A stretch of DNA of 64,000 nucleotides. Origin: Dehalogenimonas etheniformans (GTDB taxonomy: Bacteria > Chloroflexota > Dehalococcoidia > Dehalococcoidales > Dehalococcoidaceae). Below, piece after piece: positions 494 to 55,903 of this stretch. Under the pieces are notes generated by a model. It saw only the letters and a list, made by a program, of their open reading frames with translations, had not been told where the DNA came from and did no database searches. Where the stretch lies: the NCBI RefSeq assembly GCF_014672715.2, contig NZ_CP058566.2:1116001-1180000 (forward strand), written 5' to 3'. The first letter of the stretch is position 1. Each line of letters starts with the position of its first letter. The position numbers and the translations under genes are program-made.

Positions 494-625
494 ATGATCT
501 TACCTTCTCGCGATTCCGTCAATAATATCTTAGCCCAGAATTCGTGGAAGTGTTAGTAAACGGCCTAGCTTGAATCTGCTTCCTTTACAAGCCTTGAAGT
601 TGAAGGTTAAAATAGTCTGGATTCT

Positions 626-701
626 GCGGGTGTAACTCAGTTGGTAGAGTGCCTGCTTCCCAAGCAGGTTGTCGCGGGTTCGAGTCCCGTCACCCGCTCC
701 A
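626..701 (+). tRNA. tRNA-Gly (anticodon CCC)
   Basis: The seven-base acceptor stem GCGGGTG (626-632) pairs with CACCCGC (691-697), followed by discriminator T and an encoded CCA (699-701). The D arm has AGTTGGTAGAG, the anticodon stem CCTGC/GCAGG encloses TTCCCAA with anticodon CCC at 659-661, and the T arm GCGGG-TTCGAGT-CCCGT is canonical. Confidence 0.97.
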
Positions 702-729
702 TCATTTCAGCTTTGAGTGGCCAACCAAT

Positions 730-1974
730 TCATCGTACCAGTGAGCCGCGTTCGACTTCCCCACTGACGACAGATCCGGGCCGAATCAACGCGCCATCAC
801 CGATCAGCGTGCCCGGATTTATCGAGACGTTTATTCCGGTTTGAACGTTATCACCGATAATCGCTCCAAATTTATGCAAACCGGTATCAACATGGCCGCT
901 CCTTATATTGCGGTGATCGAACCGAAGGTTGGCGACCTTGGTGCCCGCCCCAAAGTTACAATTTTCACCAATCACACTGTCGCCGACATAACTGAGGTGC
1001 GGAATCTTGGTGCCAGACATGATTATCGAATTCTTGATCTCGACCGAAGCGCCGATACGACATCCATTGCCAATTGCCGTCGAACCGCGGATATAACAGT
1101 TGGGGCCGATATCGCAGTTCTCCCCGATAATCACGGGCCCGGTGATATAAGAGCCGGAACGGATCCTGGTGTTTTTTCCTAAGACACAACGACCTTCAAT
1201 GTGAGCCCCCGGTTCGATCGCGCCTTCACAACCCGATTCCATCCCAGACAATATTATTTCATTGACTCTCAAGAGTTCCCAGGGATAACTCACGGTCAGC
1301 CAATAGTTAATAGGCTGACAGGCAACGCCAGATCCATCATTGATCAGAATCTCCAGCGATCTGGTGATTTCAAACTGACCCCGGGGGGATTTTTCGGTGC
1401 GGTCGATAGCCTGGAAAATGGCTTCGGTAAATAGGTAAGTACCTGCGTTAGCGAGTTTTGAAGTAGCGTACTCCGGCTTTTCCAGAATGCTTTTAACCCG
1501 GCCGTTTTCAACCTCGATGATTCCAAGACCGGTCGTGTCGTTGACTTCTTGTACCGCGATGGAGGTCGACGGAAAGCTTGCCAACCGTTCGATGTCTGCT
1601 TTACCAATGATCCCATCACCATTCAATACGATGAAGCGATCACCTACCATCCCCTGCGCCAACTTTATAGCACTGGCGGTACCAGTCGCCTCTGCCTGGA
1701 TGAAATAGGAAATTCGGACTTTCCAGCGGGTCCCGTCACCAAAGTAGTCCCTGATTGAACCCTCTCTATAACCGATGATGAAAGCAAATTCAGTAATTCC
1801 AGCTGCGATGCACTCCAATAAAAGCCATTCAAGAATGGGTTTATTTGCTACCGTTATCATGGGTTTGGGACGCGTAAAGGTCAGGGGCTTCATGCGCCTG
1901 CCTTCTCCCGCCGCCAGAATTACCGCCTTTAAGAGGCTATTCTCCCGGTCTGTCTCCCGTTTTGCCTGAATCAT
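730..1974 (-). CDS. bifunctional sugar-1-phosphate nucleotidylyltransferase/acetyltransferase (GlmU-like)
   Basis: This 414-residue protein starts with a short tail and then the nucleotidyltransferase signature KAVILAAGEGRRMKPLT with RPKPM (pyrophosphorylase loop and substrate lysine). A Rossmann-like domain with LNGDGI (metal-binding Asp) and VEKPE follows up to about residue 235. The C-terminal half is a left-handed beta helix built from hexapeptide repeats (GENCDIGPNCYIRG, IGNGCRIGASVEI, IGENCNFGAG). This layout is that of the archaeal/Chloroflexi GlmU-like family, which makes UDP-GlcNAc or a related NDP-sugar. Substrate cannot be fixed from sequence. The annotated ATG gives about 15 extra residues before KAVIL; no better start is visible. 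It stands alone, with tRNA-Gly downstream on the other strand. Confidence 0.85.
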   Translation of the reverse strand: MIQAKRETDRENSLLKAVILAAGEGRRMKPLTFTRPKPMITVANKPILEWLLLECIAAGITEFAFIIGYREGSIRDYFGDGTRWKVRISYFIQAEATGTASAIKLAQGMVGDRFIVLNGDGIIGKADIERLASFPSTSIAVQEVNDTTGLGIIEVENGRVKSILEKPEYATSKLANAGTYLFTEAIFQAIDRTEKSPRGQFEITRSLEILINDGSGVACQPINYWLTVSYPWELLRVNEIILSGMESGCEGAIEPGAHIEGRCVLGKNTRIRSGSYITGPVIIGENCDIGPNCYIRGSTAIGNGCRIGASVEIKNSIIMSGTKIPHLSYVGDSVIGENCNFGAGTKVANLRFDHRNIRSGHVDTGLHKFGAIIGDNVQTGINVSINPGTLIGDGALIRPGSVVSGEVERGSLVR

Positions 1975-2203
1975 TCAGAAACCCAACTTCCCGATTTCGA
2001 TAAGGCGAAAGATGCGTTAAACGATTCTAATTTGTTGAAGAATTCCTGTCAAAACGCGCATATGTGCGTTCCGGCCGAAGGATTGTTTTTGTGATTCCAG
2101 TCCGTGCCATCAGGTTCTCTCAGCGGAAGGTCGAGGTCTCGTCAAATAGACTGTATACGGAAAATAAGTTGGATAGGTATTACACCTGAACCCGAAAAAG
2201 CGA

Positions 2204-2500
2204 TTATTTTTCGGCGTTCTGGCGGGGACGACGGGAGCGAACTGCGGTCTTGACCTTTATGTCTAGTTGGGGATAGACCGAGGGCAAGAGTTGCTTGGTT
2301 TCCTGGGTAATTTCTTCCAGCCGGTCAAGGATAAGAACATTCCGGGCATCACGAGCATCTCCCTGGGAGTTCTGATCCGGGGCTAGATTGTTGCATTGAG
2401 CTCTAAGCGAATAATATTCGCTGGTAAGCCTGATCAGTTGTAAACGCGCTTCTTCGGTGGCGGAGTGTTCGGCCGCCAGGCTGTTTTGATTTTGTTCCAT
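2204..2500 (-). CDS. small hypothetical protein, helical
   Basis: This 98-residue protein of unknown family starts at an ATG preceded by AGAGGAATT. It is rich in Glu, Gln, Leu and Arg, with two stretches that look helical (EEARLQLIRLTSEYYSL and NVLILDRLEEITQETKQLL) and a basic tail ending RSRRPRQNAEK. There is no signal peptide, membrane segment or cysteine cluster; the only Cys is at about 36. It sits between the GlmU-like gene and the MmpL gene on the same strand, but the gaps on both sides are over 100 bases, so it is probably transcribed alone. Coding status is likely, given the ribosome-binding site and codon use, but function is unknown. Confidence 0.55.
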   Translation of the reverse strand: MEQNQNSLAAEHSATEEARLQLIRLTSEYYSLRAQCNNLAPDQNSQGDARDARNVLILDRLEEITQETKQLLPSVYPQLDIKVKTAVRSRRPRQNAEK

Positions 2501-2616
2501 AATTCCTCTGGCTCTTGAAAAGGAATTATACCCGTCAAATATGTTGGTAACAGCCCTACGTTGGTACCATTTTTGGCCAATCCCCTAGGTAAACCAGTAA
2601 ACTTTCGTAAAATGGT

Positions 2617-5109
2617 CTATTGCCTCGCCAGGTTACGGCCTCCAGGCCACCAGTTGTATTTCCCAAGTACTCTCGCCAAGGCGGGTACCAATAGAGCCCG
2701 TGCGATGAAGGTGTCGAGGATGATGCCGAGGGCTATAGCCATTCCGATCTGATGAACCATTTGGAGCGGCGAAAGAATAAGTACGCTAAATGTGCCGGCC
2801 AGTATAATTCCGCAGGTGCTGATGACGCCACCGGTGTGGGTCACGGCAGTGTCCACGGCTTGCCTAGTAGGAACGGAAGCAGCTTCTTCCCTGATCCTGG
2901 ACATCAGGAACAGGTTGTAATCCGCGCCGACGGCCACGAGCATGATGAAAATGAAAAGCGGCAGTACATATATAATCGGTTCTTTAGATACGTTCTGAAC
3001 GAAAAAGGTGGTAAACCCAAGCGTAGCTCCGAAATTGAAAAGGACCGTGGCGACCATGTACAGCGGTGCCACGAGGCTCCTCAGCACGATCACCAGGATC
3101 ACGAAAATGGCGGCGACCGACGGTATGGCTACACGGCCAAAATCAGCCGCGGTCACGGAAATCGTGTCCGCGTACCGGGCGGTTTCTCCGCCGAGGTAAG
3201 TTTCGCTCCCAGCTGATAATTGCGCCTCCTTAAAGGCAATATCTTCGCGAAGTCCTGGGATCAAGGCCACCGCCTCATCGGAATAGGGGTCCACACTCAA
3301 AACGATGTTGATCCGGGCATACATCTTGTCGGTGGAGAAGTAAGTTTGATACAACCAGTTAGTGAATGGAGTCGATACCTCCAGATTGAATTCCTGAACC
3401 ATCCCGTCCAATCCCGCAGCCAGACCATTGGCTGCCTGAACAAGCTGGGATAATAGAGCGGGAAGGTCTGGCGGCGTGGCGTTTTGAATTGTTGCCAGAA
3501 GGTGCGCGGATGTTTGGGCGGCAGCTGCCGATTGTTGAAATGCGGGGCTGCCGACAATCCCGGGATACCGTATGGGTAGCACGCCAAGCGTTTCCCCCGC
3601 CTCCTGAAAAGGTACAGACGTCGAGGTATCGAAACGTCCGGCTGCGATATTACTGGCAACCGCCCGGATCTGAGTAGCCAGCGTGGTCAAAGAAGCAGAA
3701 GGAGCGTTGAAATAATCAACTCGTGCCACCCCATGCAATGTGGAAAGATAAGCGGCAAGCTCGTCTATACCCTGCCGCGACGAAACCGCGGTAAAATCTG
3801 TTCCGCTTGAGCTGACCAGCAAGTACAGAGGCTGAAGTTCACCTTTTGGGAATTGTGATTGGATCACATGGAAACCGGCGGCTGCCTCGACTTCCTGGGG
3901 TATCTGAGCGATGACATCGGCGGATCGTTTCAGCGAAGGCAAGAACACATACGGTACCGCCAGTACCACAATTACGGGCAGGATGATGAGCCACGGTTTG
4001 GAAACAACAAAGTCGGAGATCTTACTCCAGCCAATATTTTTGCCGGCAGCCCTGGCAGCCTCCCCCGGCCAGAAAAGTTTGCGCCCGAAAATGATCATCA
4101 GGGAAGGAACAAGGGTTACCCCGGCAAGGAGGGTGATTGCGACCCCGGTGGCAAGAGCTACGCCGACCGATTTGGTCATACCGAACTGGGACGCCCAGAG
4201 ACACAGGAAAGCTATGATCACAGTCAAGGCACTGGCCGAGATGACAGGCCCTATTTTGGCCATGGTGAAACCGACGGCATCGGGACGTCGGGCAGACAAT
4301 TCTTCCCGTAATCTCGAAATAATGAACAGACAGTAGTCAGTGCCGATGCCGAAGATGATTACCACCAGGTAGGCGTCGGCGAGCGTCGATACCTTTAGCC
4401 CGGATTCGGCCATGAATCCCACCAGACCCCGGGCGATAAGGAAACTCCAACCGATAGCGATAAGCGGAACCAGTGACGCCACCGGGGAACGGTAGGCAAT
4501 TAACAATAAAACCGCTACCAGAAAAATAGTGACCAGGGTAGTCCGGTCAATGGTATTGTTAATCGATTGGAACAGATCCTTGGAGATAGCTACCTGGCCG
4601 GTAACATAGATATTCCCCGGATGCGGGCTCCCGGATATGTAGTGCCGAATAATGTCTACGGTGGCTTGAGACGAAGGCTCGAGGGAAGGTTTGCTGAGGC
4701 CGACATTCATCAGCATGACGGTGTTGTCTGCACTTATCAGGACCGTTTTCAGGGCGGGGTTGTCGAGGACTGTGGTCACCGATTTTATGTCAGCCGGGCC
4801 GCTATCGGAAAGAAGCCAGTCTCGCAAACTCAGGGCGAAAACGTTGTCGGCGTCGGAAAGCCCCTGGTCGTTTTGGATGACTATTTCGATTGTGCTGGCG
4901 GCGGTGTCTGGCGTCGCATAAAACCGGCTGTTAACAATATCCCGAGCCAGTGTCGATTCGGTGTCGGAAGGCAAAAACTGACTGTCGTCATTGATGCCTA
5001 CATCAGATAACCTTGGGGCAAAAAGAAATGAAGAGATCGCAGCAACGGTCCAAACGGCGGCTATCAGCCACCTATACCGCCTGGAGATGTCCGCAATCTT
5101 TTTGAACAT
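2617..5109 (-). CDS. MmpL/RND-superfamily transporter
   Basis: This 830-residue inner-membrane protein consists of two homologous halves. Each half has one N-terminal membrane segment (RYRWLIAAVWTVAAISSFLF in the first), a large extracytoplasmic domain, and a five-helix bundle. The family-specific charged motifs are visible in the bundles: GTDYCLFIISRLREE in the first and GADYNLFLMSRIREEA in the second. MmpL proteins use proton motive force to export lipids, glycolipids or hydrophobic drugs. In a Dehalococcoidia cell with an unusual envelope, lipid export is plausible but this is inference. It is monocistronic, divergent from rpsO, and no ribosome-binding site is obvious before the ATG at 5109. 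Confidence 0.9.
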   Translation of the reverse strand: MFKKIADISRRYRWLIAAVWTVAAISSFLFAPRLSDVGINDDSQFLPSDTESTLARDIVNSRFYATPDTAASTIEIVIQNDQGLSDADNVFALSLRDWLLSDSGPADIKSVTTVLDNPALKTVLISADNTVMLMNVGLSKPSLEPSSQATVDIIRHYISGSPHPGNIYVTGQVAISKDLFQSINNTIDRTTLVTIFLVAVLLLIAYRSPVASLVPLIAIGWSFLIARGLVGFMAESGLKVSTLADAYLVVIIFGIGTDYCLFIISRLREELSARRPDAVGFTMAKIGPVISASALTVIIAFLCLWASQFGMTKSVGVALATGVAITLLAGVTLVPSLMIIFGRKLFWPGEAARAAGKNIGWSKISDFVVSKPWLIILPVIVVLAVPYVFLPSLKRSADVIAQIPQEVEAAAGFHVIQSQFPKGELQPLYLLVSSSGTDFTAVSSRQGIDELAAYLSTLHGVARVDYFNAPSASLTTLATQIRAVASNIAAGRFDTSTSVPFQEAGETLGVLPIRYPGIVGSPAFQQSAAAAQTSAHLLATIQNATPPDLPALLSQLVQAANGLAAGLDGMVQEFNLEVSTPFTNWLYQTYFSTDKMYARINIVLSVDPYSDEAVALIPGLREDIAFKEAQLSAGSETYLGGETARYADTISVTAADFGRVAIPSVAAIFVILVIVLRSLVAPLYMVATVLFNFGATLGFTTFFVQNVSKEPIIYVLPLFIFIMLVAVGADYNLFLMSRIREEAASVPTRQAVDTAVTHTGGVISTCGIILAGTFSVLILSPLQMVHQIGMAIALGIILDTFIARALLVPALARVLGKYNWWPGGRNLARQ

Positions 5110-45004: not shown

Positions 45005-45997
45005 CTACGGCCAGGAGGTCTTGTGCAACAGGCAAGCGACAAAGTGACCGTTACCCGCGTCGTTCAACAGAGGTACGACATTCTTGCATTCCTCGAATGC
45101 TTTGGGGCAGCGGGGATGAAAAACGCAGCCCGAAGGAGGATTCAACGGGCTGGGCGGTTCGCCCTGCAGCAGGATGACCTTCCGTTTAGCCTCCACCTTG
45201 GGGTCCGGCACAGGGACGGCCGAAAGTAAAGCCTGGGTATATGGGTGCAGCGGACGCTCGTATAGCGCATCGCGAGGTGCTATCTCCATGATTTTGCCAA
45301 GGTACATCACCCCTACCCGGTGGCTTATGTGCCGGACCACTGAAAGGTCGTGTGAAATGAACAAATACGCAACACCGAATTGACGCTGGAGGTCGTCTAA
45401 CAGATTGAGTACCTGAGCCTGGATGGACACGTCAAGTGCGGATAACGGCTCGTCGCAGACAATGAATTCAGGTTGCAGCGCCAGAGCCCTGGCGACTCCG
45501 AGCCTCTGCCTCTGGCCGCCCGAAAATTCATGTGGATACCGTTCAGCCATGTATGGGGCGAGCCCGACAATATCAAGCAGTTCTTTTACCCTATTCCGGC
45601 ACTCGTCTTTACTGGCATGATGCAATCTCAACGGTTCGGTGATGATATCATAGGCAGTGAACCGCGGATTCAAGGACTCATAGGGGTCCTGGAAGATTAC
45701 CTGGAGTTTAGGCCGGAATGGTCGCAACTGTTTATCCGTGAGTCCAACTAAGTTCTTTCCCTTGAAACTGACTTCGCCGGATGTCGGCCGGTGGAGTTGC
45801 AGGACGCATTTACCTACTGTGGTCTTGCCGGACCCGGATTCGCCCACAAGCCCCAGGGTCTCCCCGTGGTGCACCGCAAAAGTAACCCCATCGACGGCCT
45901 TAAGTTCGGTGACTTTTTTCCGCAGAAAACCGCCTGATCCTATCGGGAAATATTTGGTGAGGTTATTGACTTCTACTAAGACTTCGTCTTTTGCCAA
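45005..45997 (-). CDS. oppF: oligopeptide/dipeptide ABC transporter ATPase (OppF/DppF type)
   Basis: The protein has Walker A GESGSGKTT, signature LSGGQ-like FSGGQRQRLGVARAL, Walker B FIVCDEPLSALD and switch ISHDL. The C-terminal oligopeptide-type tail (GCVFHPRCPKAFEEC with a Cys cluster) is present and is reported to bind an iron-sulfur cluster in some relatives. The start is TTG at 45997 (GGAG seven bases upstream), which overlaps oppD by 22 bases; the ORF continues upstream within oppD. It is the last gene of the operon. Confidence 0.9.
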   Translation of the reverse strand: MAKDEVLVEVNNLTKYFPIGSGGFLRKKVTELKAVDGVTFAVHHGETLGLVGESGSGKTTVGKCVLQLHRPTSGEVSFKGKNLVGLTDKQLRPFRPKLQVIFQDPYESLNPRFTAYDIITEPLRLHHASKDECRNRVKELLDIVGLAPYMAERYPHEFSGGQRQRLGVARALALQPEFIVCDEPLSALDVSIQAQVLNLLDDLQRQFGVAYLFISHDLSVVRHISHRVGVMYLGKIMEIAPRDALYERPLHPYTQALLSAVPVPDPKVEAKRKVILLQGEPPSPLNPPSGCVFHPRCPKAFEECKNVVPLLNDAGNGHFVACLLHKTSWP

Positions 45998-46977
45998 GGC
46001 ATCTCTCCGTTGATCGCGACAAGACAACTGGTGAAGTGTCCAGGCGTCATTTCTACCATCTTGAATTTCATGACGTCGCATTCACCCTTCACGAAATAAC
46101 TGCACCTGGCGGCAAACGCGCAGCCTGAAGGCGGACAGATTAAATCTGGCGGTTGACCCTCGATAGAGCGAAGACGCATTTTCCGCGGCTCATCCAAACG
46201 GGGAACTGAACCAAGGAGGCCCACCGTATAAGGATGTAAAGGATTATGAAAGATCTCAACGGCAGTTCCATTCTCAACCACCCGCCCGGCATACATCACG
46301 TAGACACGATGCGCATATCGGGCAACAACACCCAAATTGTGGGTGATCAGAATGAGAGCGCTATCCAGATCTTTAACAATACCTTTTAACAACTCAAGCA
46401 GTTGTGCTTGAATGGTGACATCTACGGCCGTAGTCGGCTCGTCCGCAATGATGAGTTTCGGTTGGCAGGAGATAGCCATAGCGATCATCACCCGCTGGCG
46501 CATACCACCGGAAAAATGGTGCGGGTAGCTCTTTGCGCGTTTTTCAGCTTGAGGGATACCAACCTTCTGTAGCAGGTTAGCTGCCTCGGCCAGAGCAGCT
46601 TTCTTTTTTAGCTCTTTGTGAAGCATTAACGATTCGGTTAGTTGCCGCCCGATCGTCAGAACCGGATTAAGCGAGGTCATCGGTTCCTGAAAGATCATCG
46701 ATATCTTGCAACCGCGAATCTTTCTCATCTCTTCCTTTGACAGGCGCAGAATGTCTACGCCGTCGAAGAAAATGTCGCCGCTGGCAATTTTCCCTGCCGG
46801 TTCGGGGATCAGGCGCATAACCGAAAGCGAACTAACCGTCTTGCCGCAACCGCTCTCACCGACCAGGGCTACGAGTTCGCCCCTATCGACGGTGAAGGAA
46901 ACGTCATTGACCGCGTGGACGATACCATCCTGCGTATGAAATTCAGTGACTAAATGTTTTACTTCCAGAAGCGCCAT
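45976..46977 (-). CDS. oppD: oligopeptide/dipeptide ABC transporter ATPase (OppD/DppD type)
   Basis: The 333-residue ATPase has Walker A GESGCGKT, signature [14 protein letters not shown], Walker [13 protein letters not shown], and H-loop ITHNLG. The C-terminal CxxxCSYF cysteine tail ([17 protein letters not shown]) is typical for OppD/DppD. It pairs with OppF to power the OppBC channel. It starts two bases after oppC. Confidence 0.93.
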
Positions 46978-46978
46978 A

Positions 46979-47911
46979 TTATCTTTTCATCCTCGGGTCC
47001 AGTGCATCGCGCAAGCCATCACCCAAAAATGTGAATGCCAGCATTAACAAAGCAATAGCCGCGGCGGGAATGATGACAAGATGAGGGTACGCATTTAACA
47101 CTGCGAAGCCATCGCGAATCATTGCGCCCCAGCTTGGAGTCGGCGGTTTGATACCGATACCGATATAGCTTAATGCGGCTTCGGCGAAGATCGCGCGGGG
47201 TACGCCGAATGTTATGGCCACGATCACTGGACCCAGCGCATTTGGTATCACATGCCTCATCGTTATATAGCGGCTGTCACCGCCCAGCGAGCGAGCAGCA
47301 GTAACGAAATCACGTTGTTTCAATGACAGCACCTGACCGCGTACCAGACGCGCGATGCCTACCCAGGATACTAGTCCGATAGCCAGGAAGATCACGAATA
47401 TTCCGCCGCCGAATTTGGCAAAACTGGTCTCTCTCATTACGGCACTAAGCAGGATAATTAACAGGATGTCGGGGAAAGCATACATGATATCCACGAAGCG
47501 CATTAGGACATTATCTATCTTGCCACCGATAAACCCGGCGAAAGCCCCTATGGGTAATCCAATAAGAAGGACGATAAATTGCGTAAAGAATCCGACCATT
47601 AACGAGGTTCGCGCGCCGTACAGCATCCGTGCAAAGACATCGCGCCCCAATTCATCGGTGCCAAACCAGTGAACGGTACTTGGTGGCTGCATAACTGCAG
47701 AGTAATCCTGGAAGGCATAATCATAAGGGGTGATCCAGGGTGCAAAAATAGCCGCCAATGCGATAACGAGAACGATAAGACCGCCAACGACTGCTAATTT
47801 ATTGCGACGCAGCCGGATCCATGCGTCGGCCCACAGCGTGCGGTGAACTCGCGTGGTCACCAATTCAGGCGAGGACGGCATAGAATTTCGTTCTGCCGCT
47901 TGATCAATCAT
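46979..47911 (-). CDS. oppC: oligopeptide/dipeptide ABC transporter permease (OppC/DppC type)
   Basis: The 310-residue permease has the OppC N-terminal helix (LAVVGGLIVLVIALAAIF), the GTDELGRDVFARMLYGARTSL segment that precedes the core, and the EAA loop (AARSLGGDSRYITMRHVIPNALGPV). Six membrane helices are visible. Overlaps oppB by eight bases. Confidence 0.94.
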   Translation of the reverse strand: MIDQAAERNSMPSSPELVTTRVHRTLWADAWIRLRRNKLAVVGGLIVLVIALAAIFAPWITPYDYAFQDYSAVMQPPSTVHWFGTDELGRDVFARMLYGARTSLMVGFFTQFIVLLIGLPIGAFAGFIGGKIDNVLMRFVDIMYAFPDILLIILLSAVMRETSFAKFGGGIFVIFLAIGLVSWVGIARLVRGQVLSLKQRDFVTAARSLGGDSRYITMRHVIPNALGPVIVAITFGVPRAIFAEAALSYIGIGIKPPTPSWGAMIRDGFAVLNAYPHLVIIPAAAIALLMLAFTFLGDGLRDALDPRMKR

Positions 47912-48821
47912 AGCGGATCCTTGGATCTATCACAGCATAAAGTACGTCAACGACTAAATTCACCAAGGCTACGGCAAAAGCGTAAAAAAGAATCGCTCCC
48001 ATAATCAAGCCATAATCTCGCTGAAAGACACCTGCCACAAAAAGCCGGCCTATGCCCGGTACGGAAAACAAAGTTTCGATAATAAATGAACCTGAAACGA
48101 GGGCAGCCAATTCAGGCCCGGCAACGGTGACCACCGGGATCATCGCATTCCTTCCGATGTGCCTGAGTAAAACTTGCCGCTCAGGTAAACCCTTTGCCCT
48201 TGCGGTACGTACATAGTCTTGTCTAATGACGTCGAGCATTGAAGCGCGGGTAATACGTGCCGTATAAGCGGCTGGCAATGCTGCTAATGCCACCGCTGGC
48301 ATGATGATAGGTTGTATCCCTCCCCATCCGCTGGTTGGCAACCAATGTAACTGGATAGAAAATATATACATTAGGAAAATGCCGAGAACAAATCCTGGAA
48401 CGCTGGCAAAAATCGTGGCGTACCCGACTGAAAAATAGTCTATAAATGAATTTTGTTTAAGCGCAGCTGCAATACCCAGACCCACCCCTAAAATAATCGC
48501 CAAGGCAAAAGCCGTAAGTCCCAATATCGCACTGACGGGAAGACCTCCCATAATGATATCTGTCACGTTACGATCTTGGTAAATATAAGAGATCCCCAGG
48601 TCGCCGTGTAAGGCGTTCCAGATATAAGTCCCGAACTGGACGATGAGAGGTTTGTCCAGTCCGTACTTCTCATTCAGATTTTCAATAACTTGGGGAGCTA
48701 GCGCTTTTGCCCTGTCCCATGGACCTCCCGGAACCAGGTGCATTAGAACAAAAGTGATCGTAGCTACCGCAAAAAGGACAAGCAGCATCCATAAAAGGCG
48801 GCGAGCGATGTACTTAGCCAT
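47904..48821 (-). CDS. oppB: oligopeptide/dipeptide ABC transporter permease (OppB/DppB type)
   Basis: The 305-residue permease starts MAKYIARRLLWMLLVLFAVATITF, has PGGPWDRAKALAP near the N-terminus, and the EAA loop (RTARAKGLPERQVLLRHIGRNAMIPVVT). It forms the channel with OppC. It follows the binding-protein gene, separated by a strong hairpin. Confidence 0.94.
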   Translation of the reverse strand: MAKYIARRLLWMLLVLFAVATITFVLMHLVPGGPWDRAKALAPQVIENLNEKYGLDKPLIVQFGTYIWNALHGDLGISYIYQDRNVTDIIMGGLPVSAILGLTAFALAIILGVGLGIAAALKQNSFIDYFSVGYATIFASVPGFVLGIFLMYIFSIQLHWLPTSGWGGIQPIIMPAVALAALPAAYTARITRASMLDVIRQDYVRTARAKGLPERQVLLRHIGRNAMIPVVTVAGPELAALVSGSFIIETLFSVPGIGRLFVAGVFQRDYGLIMGAILFYAFAVALVNLVVDVLYAVIDPRIRYD

Positions 48822-48839
48822 TACACAAATCCGGATACG

Positions 48840-48874
48840 AAGCAGGGGATTGGGACCGTCCCAATCCCCTGCTT
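48840..48874 (-). terminator. 16-bp hairpin between the binding-protein gene and oppB
   Basis: The perfect stem (48840-48855 with 48859-48874) has a three-base loop. No T-run follows on the minus strand, so it is more likely an mRNA-stabilising or attenuating hairpin that raises the level of the binding protein over the permease, as is common in such operons. Confidence 0.6.
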
Positions 48875-48902: not shown

Positions 48903-50591
48903 CTACGGAGTATAACCCGCCTGAGTAAGAAGCGTTTTGGCTTTGGCGGCATCGAATTTGTAAGCCGCGCCAATAGTGGCATCGTAACCCGGCATGCCCG
49001 GCGGAATCCAGCAAGTAGTCGGATGGCCTACGCCGCCACGAATAGTGTTGATGTAGGTATCGCGGTCGATTGCGGTGGCCAATGCCTGGCGCAGAAGCTT
49101 ATTCGTAAGCGGGGCTTTGGTCATGTTGTACTGGAAAGCGTAGGTGGTCAGGTCGGCGCCACGTACGATCTGAGGGCCATAGGTTGGATCCGCAATAGTA
49201 GCTTTCTCAGTGCCGGCAGGAACACCTGTCATATCTATTTCGCCATTTTTGTAGGCAGCAAGCGATGCTTGAGAGTCGGTGATCTGTTTGAAGGTGATCT
49301 CGGTCAGGGTCGGCTTGGTGCCCCAATAGTTCGCATTTGCCTTAAGGGTGATGTGATCCAATGGCACCCATTCTGTCAGGGTGAATGGTCCGTTGCCGAT
49401 GAGGTTGCCAGCCTGGAATGCAGCAGTTGATCCCTTGGAGTCGATGACGTCCTTGCGGACTGGATAAACCGGCCACAAGGCCATCACTTGCGGGAACGTC
49501 GGCTGGGCAGCTACAAGTTTGATTTGCAGTGAGGTGGCGCTAAGCGCGGTGACCCCGACGCCAGTTACTGGCCCGGTGCCAGCATTATAGGCTTCGCCTC
49601 CAACAATGTTGAAATACATCGAAGCGTATTCTGCGGCGGTATCCTTCGCTAACATGCGCTTGATGCTGTACTCAAAATCAGCTGCGGTGCATGGCTTGCC
49701 GTCGCTCCACGTGACGTTGCTCTTCAAAGTAAAAGTGTAGGTCTTGCCGTCTGCTGAGATGCCGCCGTTAGTTGTCGAGGGCAACACGGATGCAACTACC
49801 GGAACGAGGTTAAGGTTTTGGTCGAATCCCAGCAGGCCATCAAAAAGGTTGAATAAGATACTCAGGCTGCTCGCCCAGGATGCAATGTTGGTATCAAGCG
49901 TATTGACATCGCCGCCAAGGTTAAGGCGAAGTTTGCCGCTGGGCATGCTGACTCCGCGGAGCAAACGGTCGCCCATGACCTGCCCGTCCTGGCCGGTGGG
50001 TTTGAGAGTCGGTTTCAACGCAGGGGCAACGAGGTTAAAGCGTTCCCGGTTGAAAACGTAGATGCCGGGGCAATCATCAACAACTTGTTTGTGGACTGAG
50101 TCCCATAACGCCAGGCGTTTCGTGTTATCCAGTTCTTTCATCGCACTGGCGATATTTGCGTCTACAGTCGCGTTCGAATAACCGGATTTGTTGTTACCCT
50201 GGTTAGTCCCGTAGATCGTCTGAAGGAAGTTTTCCGGATCCGGATAGTCAGCGCCCCAACCGTAGAACGACCAAGTGTGGTTCTTGGCGTTGACCAGGTT
50301 CTGGAAGGCAGCCGATTCCATCGGTTCGAGGGTAAGATCAACATTCAGGTTCTGCTTCAGCTGTCCTTGAAGGAATGCGGCGATGTTAGGGTTGCTGCCG
50401 GTGTTTGCGAACTGGAATTTGAGTTGTGGTAACTTCTCTAGTGGCTTGGTGGTCGTGGGCGGAGCAGTAGTGGTAGTGGGGGTGGTGGTCCCGCCGCAGG
50501 CTTCTGCGCCGAAGACCAAGATGCCGCCGGTGATTACCGTGGCGCCTTTGACGAAGTCCCTTCGGGTAAAGTCCATACCATGTTCGGCCAT
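48903..50591 (-). CDS. peptide ABC transporter substrate-binding protein with apparent circular permutation
   Basis: From the ATG at 50591 (AGGAGGAACC upstream) the product has 562 residues. It starts with a twin-arginine signal (FTRRDFVKG) followed by a hydrophobic stretch and a Cys at 32, so it is a Tat-exported lipoprotein. After a Thr-rich linker (TTTPTTTTAPPTTT) residues 53-200 read LPQLKFQF, QLKQNLNVDLTLEPME, YGWGADYPDP, and DSVHKQVVDDCPGIYVFN; these are motifs that come last in family-5 (DppA/OppA) binding proteins. Residues 218-562 then give LRLNLGGDVNTLD, LKSNVTWSDGKPCTAADFEYS, GNGPFTLTEW, and KLLRQALATAIDRDTY, i.e. the usual N-terminal and central part, ending at LLTQAGYTP where the other piece would normally continue. 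The order is rearranged in frame. It is the first gene of the opp operon. Confidence 0.85.
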   Translation of the reverse strand: MAEHGMDFTRRDFVKGATVITGGILVFGAEACGGTTTPTTTTAPPTTTKPLEKLPQLKFQFANTGSNPNIAAFLQGQLKQNLNVDLTLEPMESAAFQNLVNAKNHTWSFYGWGADYPDPENFLQTIYGTNQGNNKSGYSNATVDANIASAMKELDNTKRLALWDSVHKQVVDDCPGIYVFNRERFNLVAPALKPTLKPTGQDGQVMGDRLLRGVSMPSGKLRLNLGGDVNTLDTNIASWASSLSILFNLFDGLLGFDQNLNLVPVVASVLPSTTNGGISADGKTYTFTLKSNVTWSDGKPCTAADFEYSIKRMLAKDTAAEYASMYFNIVGGEAYNAGTGPVTGVGVTALSATSLQIKLVAAQPTFPQVMALWPVYPVRKDVIDSKGSTAAFQAGNLIGNGPFTLTEWVPLDHITLKANANYWGTKPTLTEITFKQITDSQASLAAYKNGEIDMTGVPAGTEKATIADPTYGPQIVRGADLTTYAFQYNMTKAPLTNKLLRQALATAIDRDTYINTIRGGVGHPTTCWIPPGMPGYDATIGAAYKFDAAKAKTLLTQAGYTP

Positions 50592-50987
50592 TCCTAGGTT
50601 CCTCCTTCTAAATTTTGGACTGTGGACAGGGCAAAAAGCGCTGTCCATTTTGAATAACTTCTATTATATCTTCCAATGGTTAAATGTCAATACGCAATAT
50701 TCAAAGTTCTATGATTCCCAAACTTCCGAAGGTGGCAAACAGTTTCCCATAAAGTGTTCTTTATGTCACCTACAAGAAAATTGCGGAGTGAGTGCCCGGT
50801 AATTACCCTGCGCTACCCACGCTTTCCAGCCAATGGACAGTGGTTATAAAGGTTATTTGATGTATGCAAAAAAAATATTTCTTCAAAAAGGCACCAAAAA
50901 CGACACGAAACGCTTGACAACTCTTTCGTACCCATGTGCTATAATGGCAATCTCCTCGCCCCTATCAATGGCCAATTCCTTTTCATC

Positions 50988-54138: not shown

Positions 54139-54415
54139 TACATTATGAGGCGATGCGTGTAGCTATTTTTGCAAACGACAAACATGCTTCAATGTCAATC
54201 ATAACCCTACTAAAACCATCGAAACCAATTTGGTGTTTCGCAAGAAAACCATACGAGTGCGACGTATTCAGGATTCCCTTCTTCTATACAAGTTTAAATG
54301 CTGCTTGTTTGGCTCGGAATCATCAAATTTGGATTCTTAGGAGGCGATATATGAAGCCATAATCGCAGTAAACATATTGTGCCATTTAATCTCGTCGAAA
54401 GAAAGGAAAGGTCGC
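54139..54415 (+). other. long rdhA1 leader without clear gene
   Basis: The 277 bases between the operator and the rdhA1 ATG hold an open frame of 69 codons (54153-54362) without likeness to any family. Its last codons follow an AGGAGG site six bases before an ATG that encodes only Met-Lys-Pro before the stop. The stretch may be a 5' leader, or a decayed gene. Nothing else is seen. Confidence 0.4.
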
Positions 54416-55903
54416 ATGTCAAAGTTTCATAGCATGGTCAGCCGCAGGCAATTTATGAAAGGTCTTGGTTTAACTGGTACTGCACTGGGAATTACCAGCT
54501 TAACCGCACCTACCTTCCACGATTTGGATGAAGCATTAACAACGACGTCGGCATCATTGCACCGGCCTTGGTACGTTAAAGAAAGAGAATACGGGGATAT
54601 TGGGATTGAGCTTGATTGGAAACTCTTAAAACCTCGATTATCGACGATCGGTCCAAGTTGGCTTTCTTCCGCTAAGGAGGCGGCTGTACCCAGTTTCAAG
54701 CAGGCCGATTTCGATAAAGCTTTAGAAGCAAAAACTAAAGAGATTTGGCCCAATTACACAGGGCCTACAACAAGGGATTACGCTTTTGCAAATGCCTGTA
54801 GCTCGGTTGGTCTCGGAGGGTCATTAGCTGGTCCGGTAAACTATGCTGCGAATACCAAACAGGGGGGATTCAAAGTTCCACCAGCACCTACTCCAGAACA
54901 ACTTGGCTTACCCAAATGGCAGGGCACACCTGAGGAAAACAACCTTATGGTACGGGCAGCATTGAGCTATATAGGTATCGGACCTGCGATCGGAGCTTCC
55001 GAATTAGACGAAAAAACAAAAAATTTTTTCTTCGTCAACCACAAACCTGATTGGGTTTGGGATGAAACTATTTCCCAGACTTATACATCCACAGATGGGA
55101 AAACGCAATATTTACCGACCTCAAACAAATACGTCGTGGTATCGAATAATATGGGGGCAACCGAATTGGGGCGTCGATCCCCATCAGTTTTAGCTGGCTC
55201 CCGAATTTTGGGAGCTAACATTGAAACAGTTTCTTATAGCCGGGTCGCATTCGCCAAAAATTTCTTTGAGGAGTTCATTCGCGGAATAGGCTACCATTGT
55301 TTTTACAATCACAGTCTATCGATGGCAAGCCCATGGGCTATGTGGTCCGGGGTTGGAGAACATGCTCGCATGGGACAGTTGTTCGTGTCGCCCCAGTATG
55401 GAGCAAACTTACGGACAAATTTTGTAGTATTCACTGATCTACCTCAGGCGTTCACTCATCCGACTGACGGTGGGGTTACCAAATTCTGCGAAACATGCGG
55501 TATCTGCGCTGAAAATTGTCCTGTAGGTGCGATTTCGATGAGGTCAGTCCAGCGAAGTTGGGATAATATGTGCGGGCAAAACTGGTCGAATGATGTCCAA
55601 GCTGGCGGTACTCAAACCATGTGGAATATACCTGGATACAAGGGTTGGAGGGTGGATATGCGTATGTGCCAGGGTTGCTGCAGTTGTAAATTCTCTTGTC
55701 CTTTTAATACCACCCGTGATGGTAACTTCTTGCACAGTGTCGTAAAAGCAACAGCATCCACTACTCCAATATTCAATAGTTTCTTCAGACAGATGGAGAC
55801 AGCCTTCCATTACGGCAAACAGGACAAGGATCCTGAATCATGGTGGGATGACCCCGCTGCGTGGTCCATTTATGGTGCAGACTACAGAATTCTACAACCG
55901 TGA
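54416..55903 (+). CDS. rdhA: reductive dehalogenase catalytic subunit RdhA
   Basis: RdhA removes halogens from organohalides with corrinoid and two 4Fe-4S clusters at the outer side of the membrane. From the ATG at 54416 (AAAGGAAAG upstream) the product has 495 residues. It starts with a Tat signal (SRRQFMKGLGLTGTALG). The cluster 1 motif is C358-x2-C361-x2-C364-x3-C368-P (CETCGICAENCP). Cluster 2 is C421-x2-C424-x3-C428-P in CCSCKFSCP, with C418 or C386 as the fourth ligand. The LPKWQGTPEEN segment and the FIRGIGYHCFYNH region are typical of the family. rdhB follows 18 bases later. Its substrate cannot be told from sequence. Confidence 0.95.
   Translation: MSKFHSMVSRRQFMKGLGLTGTALGITSLTAPTFHDLDEALTTTSASLHRPWYVKEREYGDIGIELDWKLLKPRLSTIGPSWLSSAKEAAVPSFKQADFDKALEAKTKEIWPNYTGPTTRDYAFANACSSVGLGGSLAGPVNYAANTKQGGFKVPPAPTPEQLGLPKWQGTPEENNLMVRAALSYIGIGPAIGASELDEKTKNFFFVNHKPDWVWDETISQTYTSTDGKTQYLPTSNKYVVVSNNMGATELGRRSPSVLAGSRILGANIETVSYSRVAFAKNFFEEFIRGIGYHCFYNHSLSMASPWAMWSGVGEHARMGQLFVSPQYGANLRTNFVVFTDLPQAFTHPTDGGVTKFCETCGICAENCPVGAISMRSVQRSWDNMCGQNWSNDVQAGGTQTMWNIPGYKGWRVDMRMCQGCCSCKFSCPFNTTRDGNFLHSVVKATASTTPIFNSFFRQMETAFHYGKQDKDPESWWDDPAAWSIYGADYRILQP

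Follow-up and report, generated by a model that had tools for sequence, protein, structure and literature searches.

Can a family-5 peptide-binding protein function with its two halves in exchanged order, and, if so, did this arrangement evolve or does it merely reflect a broken or misassembled gene? We address this question for a gene of Dehalogenimonas etheniformans (RefSeq assembly GCF_014672715.2, contig NZ_CP058566.2) within a window of 64,000 nucleotides (positions 1,116,001 to 1,180,000), in which the original prediction had described the gene as an evolved circular permutation of an Opp-type substrate-binding protein. The open reading frame, its coordinates and the order of its segments are as described in that prediction (Table 1), and the gene encodes a 562 aa protein in which the ancestral C-terminal third precedes the N-terminal two-thirds. 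The Pfam model SBP_bac_5 (PF00496), the only Pfam family matched, hits the protein with an overall score of 280 bits against a curated cut-off of 32.4, but in two stretches in reversed order, with profile positions 293-367 upstream (E 7e-12) and 11-282 downstream (E 3e-72). In a comparison with solved structures, the relatives found by sequence were family-5 proteins that aligned their N-terminal parts to the second block, with best alignments pairing residues ~218-561 with the N-terminal two-thirds of OppA, DppA or DppE, and some also aligned their C-terminal third to residues ~51-188. Furthermore, a hidden Markov model (HMM) built from 81 normal-order sequences (490 positions) matches the protein at positions 343-490 followed by 1-340, so that little or nothing is missing.

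Table 1. Coordinates of the permuted gene, its segments and neighbors in the window, and of related features in other loci (L numbers).
Sequence	Position	Strand	Feature
Window	48903..50591	-	Permuted family-5 (Opp/Dpp-type) substrate-binding protein (SBP), 562 aa; ATG at 50591 with AAGGAGG upstream, stop 48903-48905
Window	50496..50591	-	Residues 1-32: twin-arginine signal (FTRRDFVKG) ending in a lipobox-like AEAC (Cys at 32)
Window	50439..50495	-	Residues 33-51: Thr/Pro-rich linker joined directly to the new N-terminus
Window	49944..50438	-	Residues 52-216: ancestral C-terminal third (LKFQF ... GWGADYPDP ... GDRLLRGVSM)
Window	48906..49943	-	Residues 217-562: ancestral N-terminal two-thirds (LRLNLGGDVNTLD ... 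TWSDGKP ... LLTQAGYTP), ending at the new C-terminus
Window	49929..49946	-	Fusion of the old C- and N-termini; short turn MPSG (MPNG and MPNN in the orthologues), no spacer
Window	50663..50690	-	Promoter-like TTGACA-16-TATAAT upstream of the gene, conserved in genome G004
Window	48840..48874	-	Perfect hairpin between the binding-protein gene and DppB; conserved with changed bases in G004 and G007, not seen in the normal-order G006 gap
Window	47904..48821	-	DppB-like permease
Window	46979..47911	-	DppC-like permease
Window	45976..46977	-	DppD-like ATPase
Window	45005..46081	-	DppF-like ATPase (true start probably inside the ORF)
Window	54377-55903	+	Reductive dehalogenase-like (RdhA) gene with a twin-arginine signal, followed by a small membrane protein
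L036 (genome G003)	near 2400		One-base deletion in the permuted gene relative to G007
L076 (with L079-L084, L157)	3374-5089	-	Type B permutant, cut between two Cys of a loop; a Cys near each new end
L096	682-2565	-	Type C permutant
L099	4758-6641	-	Type C permutant
L099	8877-10586		Normal-order SBP in the same operon
L141	2870-4759	-	Type D permutant whose N-terminal extension reads like a LysM repeat (YTVVAGDTLFKLSAKFLGDGNRYLEI)
L156 (genome G893)	625-4638	-	Tandem fusion of two complete family-5 SBP domains (1338 aa)

A swap of the two gene parts by misassembly, for which the existence of normal-order orthologues might speak, is refuted by independent genomes. The contig is one closed genome of 2.07 Mb, and three other genomes of the same genus, G004 (89% identity), G007 (64%) and G003 (67%), carry the same order over the whole length of the protein, at the same syntenic locus between PilT and the peptide permease genes. 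Normal-order orthologues do exist, but in other lineages, namely, in G006 of the same genus, in G008 and G009 of the sister genus, and in G011, G024, G049 and G054 of other families, at 54-60% identity, whereas the genus members G001, G002 and G005 lack the orthologue. All these orthologues, permuted or not, are encoded in the same operon, SBP-DppB-DppC-DppD-DppF, with PilT and the B/C/D/F genes syntenic among the permuted genomes. Alignment of one normal-order orthologue (L051) to the window yields two blocks that abut to the base, with its residues 67-417 matching positions 49943-48918 and residues 431-589 matching positions 50423-49944, and nothing else in the 64 kb window matches it; neither a remnant of the ancestral order nor a remnant of a duplication intermediate was found there. 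A search for related loci with the permuted alignment found nothing, and one with the alignment of the N-terminal part found 30 loci, with all the close ones in normal order.

In a phylogenetic tree of the concatenated permeases, the four permuted genomes form a clade (support 1.0) that is sister to the normal-order G006 and then to G008/G009, as expected for vertical descent, whereas in the tree of the binding proteins the permuted clade (support 1.0) groups with G008/G009 at 0.85. Thus, the permutation most simply happened once, within the genus. By Nei-Gojobori counts, dN/dS is 0.03 for the G000/G004 pair (G000 being the genome of the window), for which dS is saturated, and 0.02 for the G007/G003 pair, which indicates strong purifying selection. 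The possibility that the gene is a permuted but non-functional relic carried along in the operon could draw on the G003 copy, which has a one-base deletion near residue 84 that represents either a sequencing error or very recent decay. However, given the low dN/dS in both pairs, the intact signal, linker and ribosome site, the consensus-like promoter, and the lack of any other binding-protein gene in the operon, we consider this possibility very unlikely. Thus, the original prediction of an evolved permutation, as opposed to a broken gene, is supported by the comparative evidence.

We next examined where the chain was opened. The old C-terminal strand runs into the old N-terminal strand through the short turn, whereas the new ends lie between the helix ending LLxxAGY and the strand LKFQF. 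In the structural model of a normal-order orthologue (pLDDT 82, pTM 0.77), which matches DppE with a Z score of 37.2 (2.8 Å over 493 residues), this site is a predicted surface loop. By the domain layout of DppA/OppA, the old ends would be neighbors in domain I and the new ones would be in domain III, so that the membrane tether is expected to move to the other lobe. The AlphaFold model of the permuted protein, obtained from an alignment of trimmed fragments because mixed-fragment alignments were misaligned by MAFFT, shows the same secondary-structure elements in rotated order, and its residues 222-438 fit OppA at 2.9 Å over 199 residues. However, this model is weak (pLDDT 70.7, pTM 0.51), given that its alignment contained unpaired fragments, and domain packing and the fusion turn are unresolved; the alignment also lacked the permuted orthologues; furthermore, Foldseek and VIA align in chain order and cover only the larger half of the permuted model.

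Taken together, these observations are best explained, with high confidence, by a substrate-binding protein of an Opp/Dpp peptide importer with circularly permuted topology that probably works as an ordinary peptide-binding protein, although, without expression or binding data, the retained fold and binding are inferred. The protein is predicted to be exported, probably by Tat, tethered to the membrane, and to bind peptides in the usual cleft and deliver them to DppBC-DF. The RR-DF motif and the Cys are invariant in the permuted orthologues, and TatC and LspA are both present in the genome, but the lipobox is not canonical, so that the protein is only perhaps lipidated. The promoter-like sequence and the hairpin fit strong and separate expression of the binding protein, although this is an inference. 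Alternatively, the protein could be permuted and folded but repurposed as a sensor, signaling or structural protein, as might be suggested by some permuted relatives that are fused to other domains (see below). This appears very unlikely because the window gene has no extra domain and is the first gene of a complete importer operon, exactly where the normal-order orthologue sits.

Beyond what the original prediction recognized, we found that permuted family-5 binding proteins recur in Chloroflexota. A search of 393 Dehalococcoidia genomes with the protein gave only the four full-length permuted matches, but a profile search of the phylum gave one odd hit that proved to be a second permuted protein with another cut point. 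This protein has 67-92% identical relatives in five further genomes, and one of the genomes searched there, G816, held a third kind. We then scanned 396 genomes of the class of genome G588, 343 Dehalococcoidia genomes and 158 genomes of the class of genome G628 with a profile of only the fused C-to-N junction, and read the spanning hits with the HMM of normal-order sequences. In all, six cut points were identified (HMM position where the protein starts/ends): A, in the window genus, 343/340, four genomes; B, ~392/395, seven genomes; C, ~117/112, three genomes; D, ~125/~92, 15 genomes of G588's class plus four checked in G628's class, with seven more there as junction hits only; E, ~276/270, six genomes including Dehalococcoidia G206, with one of the six (L139) cut by a contig end; and F, ~190/195, four genomes. 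The total of 43 checked genomes is a lower bound. A tblastn search of plasmids with a type D protein yielded two-piece (normal-order) matches.

All six cuts fall in or beside loops of the normal-order model. Types A, B, D and F are each monophyletic and C is split in two, whereas E is not clearly resolved (support 0.1). The types are separated by normal-order proteins, although D and E are neighbors, with two normal sequences between them, and one C lies beside B. Representatives checked of types A to E have a signal with a Cys and a low-complexity linker or extra domain before the first SBP segment, and most A-E loci have DppB/C beside them. In type B, the normal relative L085 has two Cys in the opened loop (STCSSTPEEC), and the permutants carry one near each new end (AQC...; DSC/DEC...), so that a disulfide might close the ends, as inferred from sequence. 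Type C includes a permutant in an operon that also holds a normal-order SBP, in the order normal SBP, DppD, DppF, permuted SBP, DppB, DppC. Of the long type D proteins (L132-L137, L143-L146, L150, L151; 691-887 aa), L132, the one scanned, carries a family-3 binding domain (SBP_bac_3) in front of the permuted family-5 domain, two binding-protein families in one chain beside DppB/C. In type F (L152-L155), the permuted SBP is at the N-terminus of 1450-2156 aa proteins, with DUF11, CARDB and TIG domains behind it in L152, and no permease genes nearby. Normal-order family-5 SBP domains were also found inside 1500-2600 aa open frames in relatives of G588 (G801, G791, G813).

Origin of the window gene through a tandem fusion followed by a new start and stop is an inference. 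Intriguingly, the tandem fusion of two full SBPs in L156 is the sort of intermediate that such a duplication route needs, but it is suggestive only. It appears somewhat more likely than not that family-5 binding proteins of Chloroflexota are a natural hot spot of circular permutation, with at least six different cut points, each at a surface loop, that arose independently, probably through tandem SBP-SBP fusions that later lost an outer piece at each end, and that were kept because moving the membrane tether to another lobe, or placing partner domains there, is useful.

Natural circular permutation is usually a rare single event, inferred between distant proteins. Here, the states before and after the event sit in the same operon within one bacterial genus, at over 50% identity, and the same family shows at least six natural cut points. 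This makes directly testable several questions that are usually approached by engineering, namely, which loops tolerate new ends, whether folding, tethering or transporter docking depends on where the chain starts, and by which intermediate permutation happens. These proteins also provide a list of natural permutants for biosensor design and show that profile-based annotation labels such proteins as ordinary family members without noticing the exchanged order.

The original prediction stated that no established permuted family-5 binding protein was known, and this agrees with our literature searches, which were limited to open-access papers; among them, papers on the detection of circular permutation and on Dehalogenimonas genomes do not mention such proteins either. 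A natural permuted binding protein is, however, known in another family. TpMglB-2 (Tp0684), the ‘Type Ic/Cluster Bc’ glucose-binding protein of Treponema pallidum, is a lipoprotein encoded beside its transporter genes that retains ligand-induced closing, as measured in that work, and its authors raised a link between permuted topology and membrane anchoring (PMC4990184). TpMglB-2 has the Type I/Cluster B sugar-binding fold, not that of family 5/Cluster C, and a different place of the cut, and its permuted part was too divergent to be traced by sequence, whereas here both halves align at 51-60% to normal-order orthologues of the same operon. With the OppA, DppA and DppE proteins (PF00496, Cluster C), the window protein shares sequence homology over both halves and the operon context, and its normal-order orthologue has the same predicted fold, but the window protein differs in chain order, with the ends inferred to be in domain III instead of domain I and the tether on the other lobe. 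Finally, the same topological operation has been used to engineer circular permutants of binding proteins for biosensors (for example, PMC6335823), but those are man-made, whereas the permutation described here is natural, fixed in a clade and recurrent.
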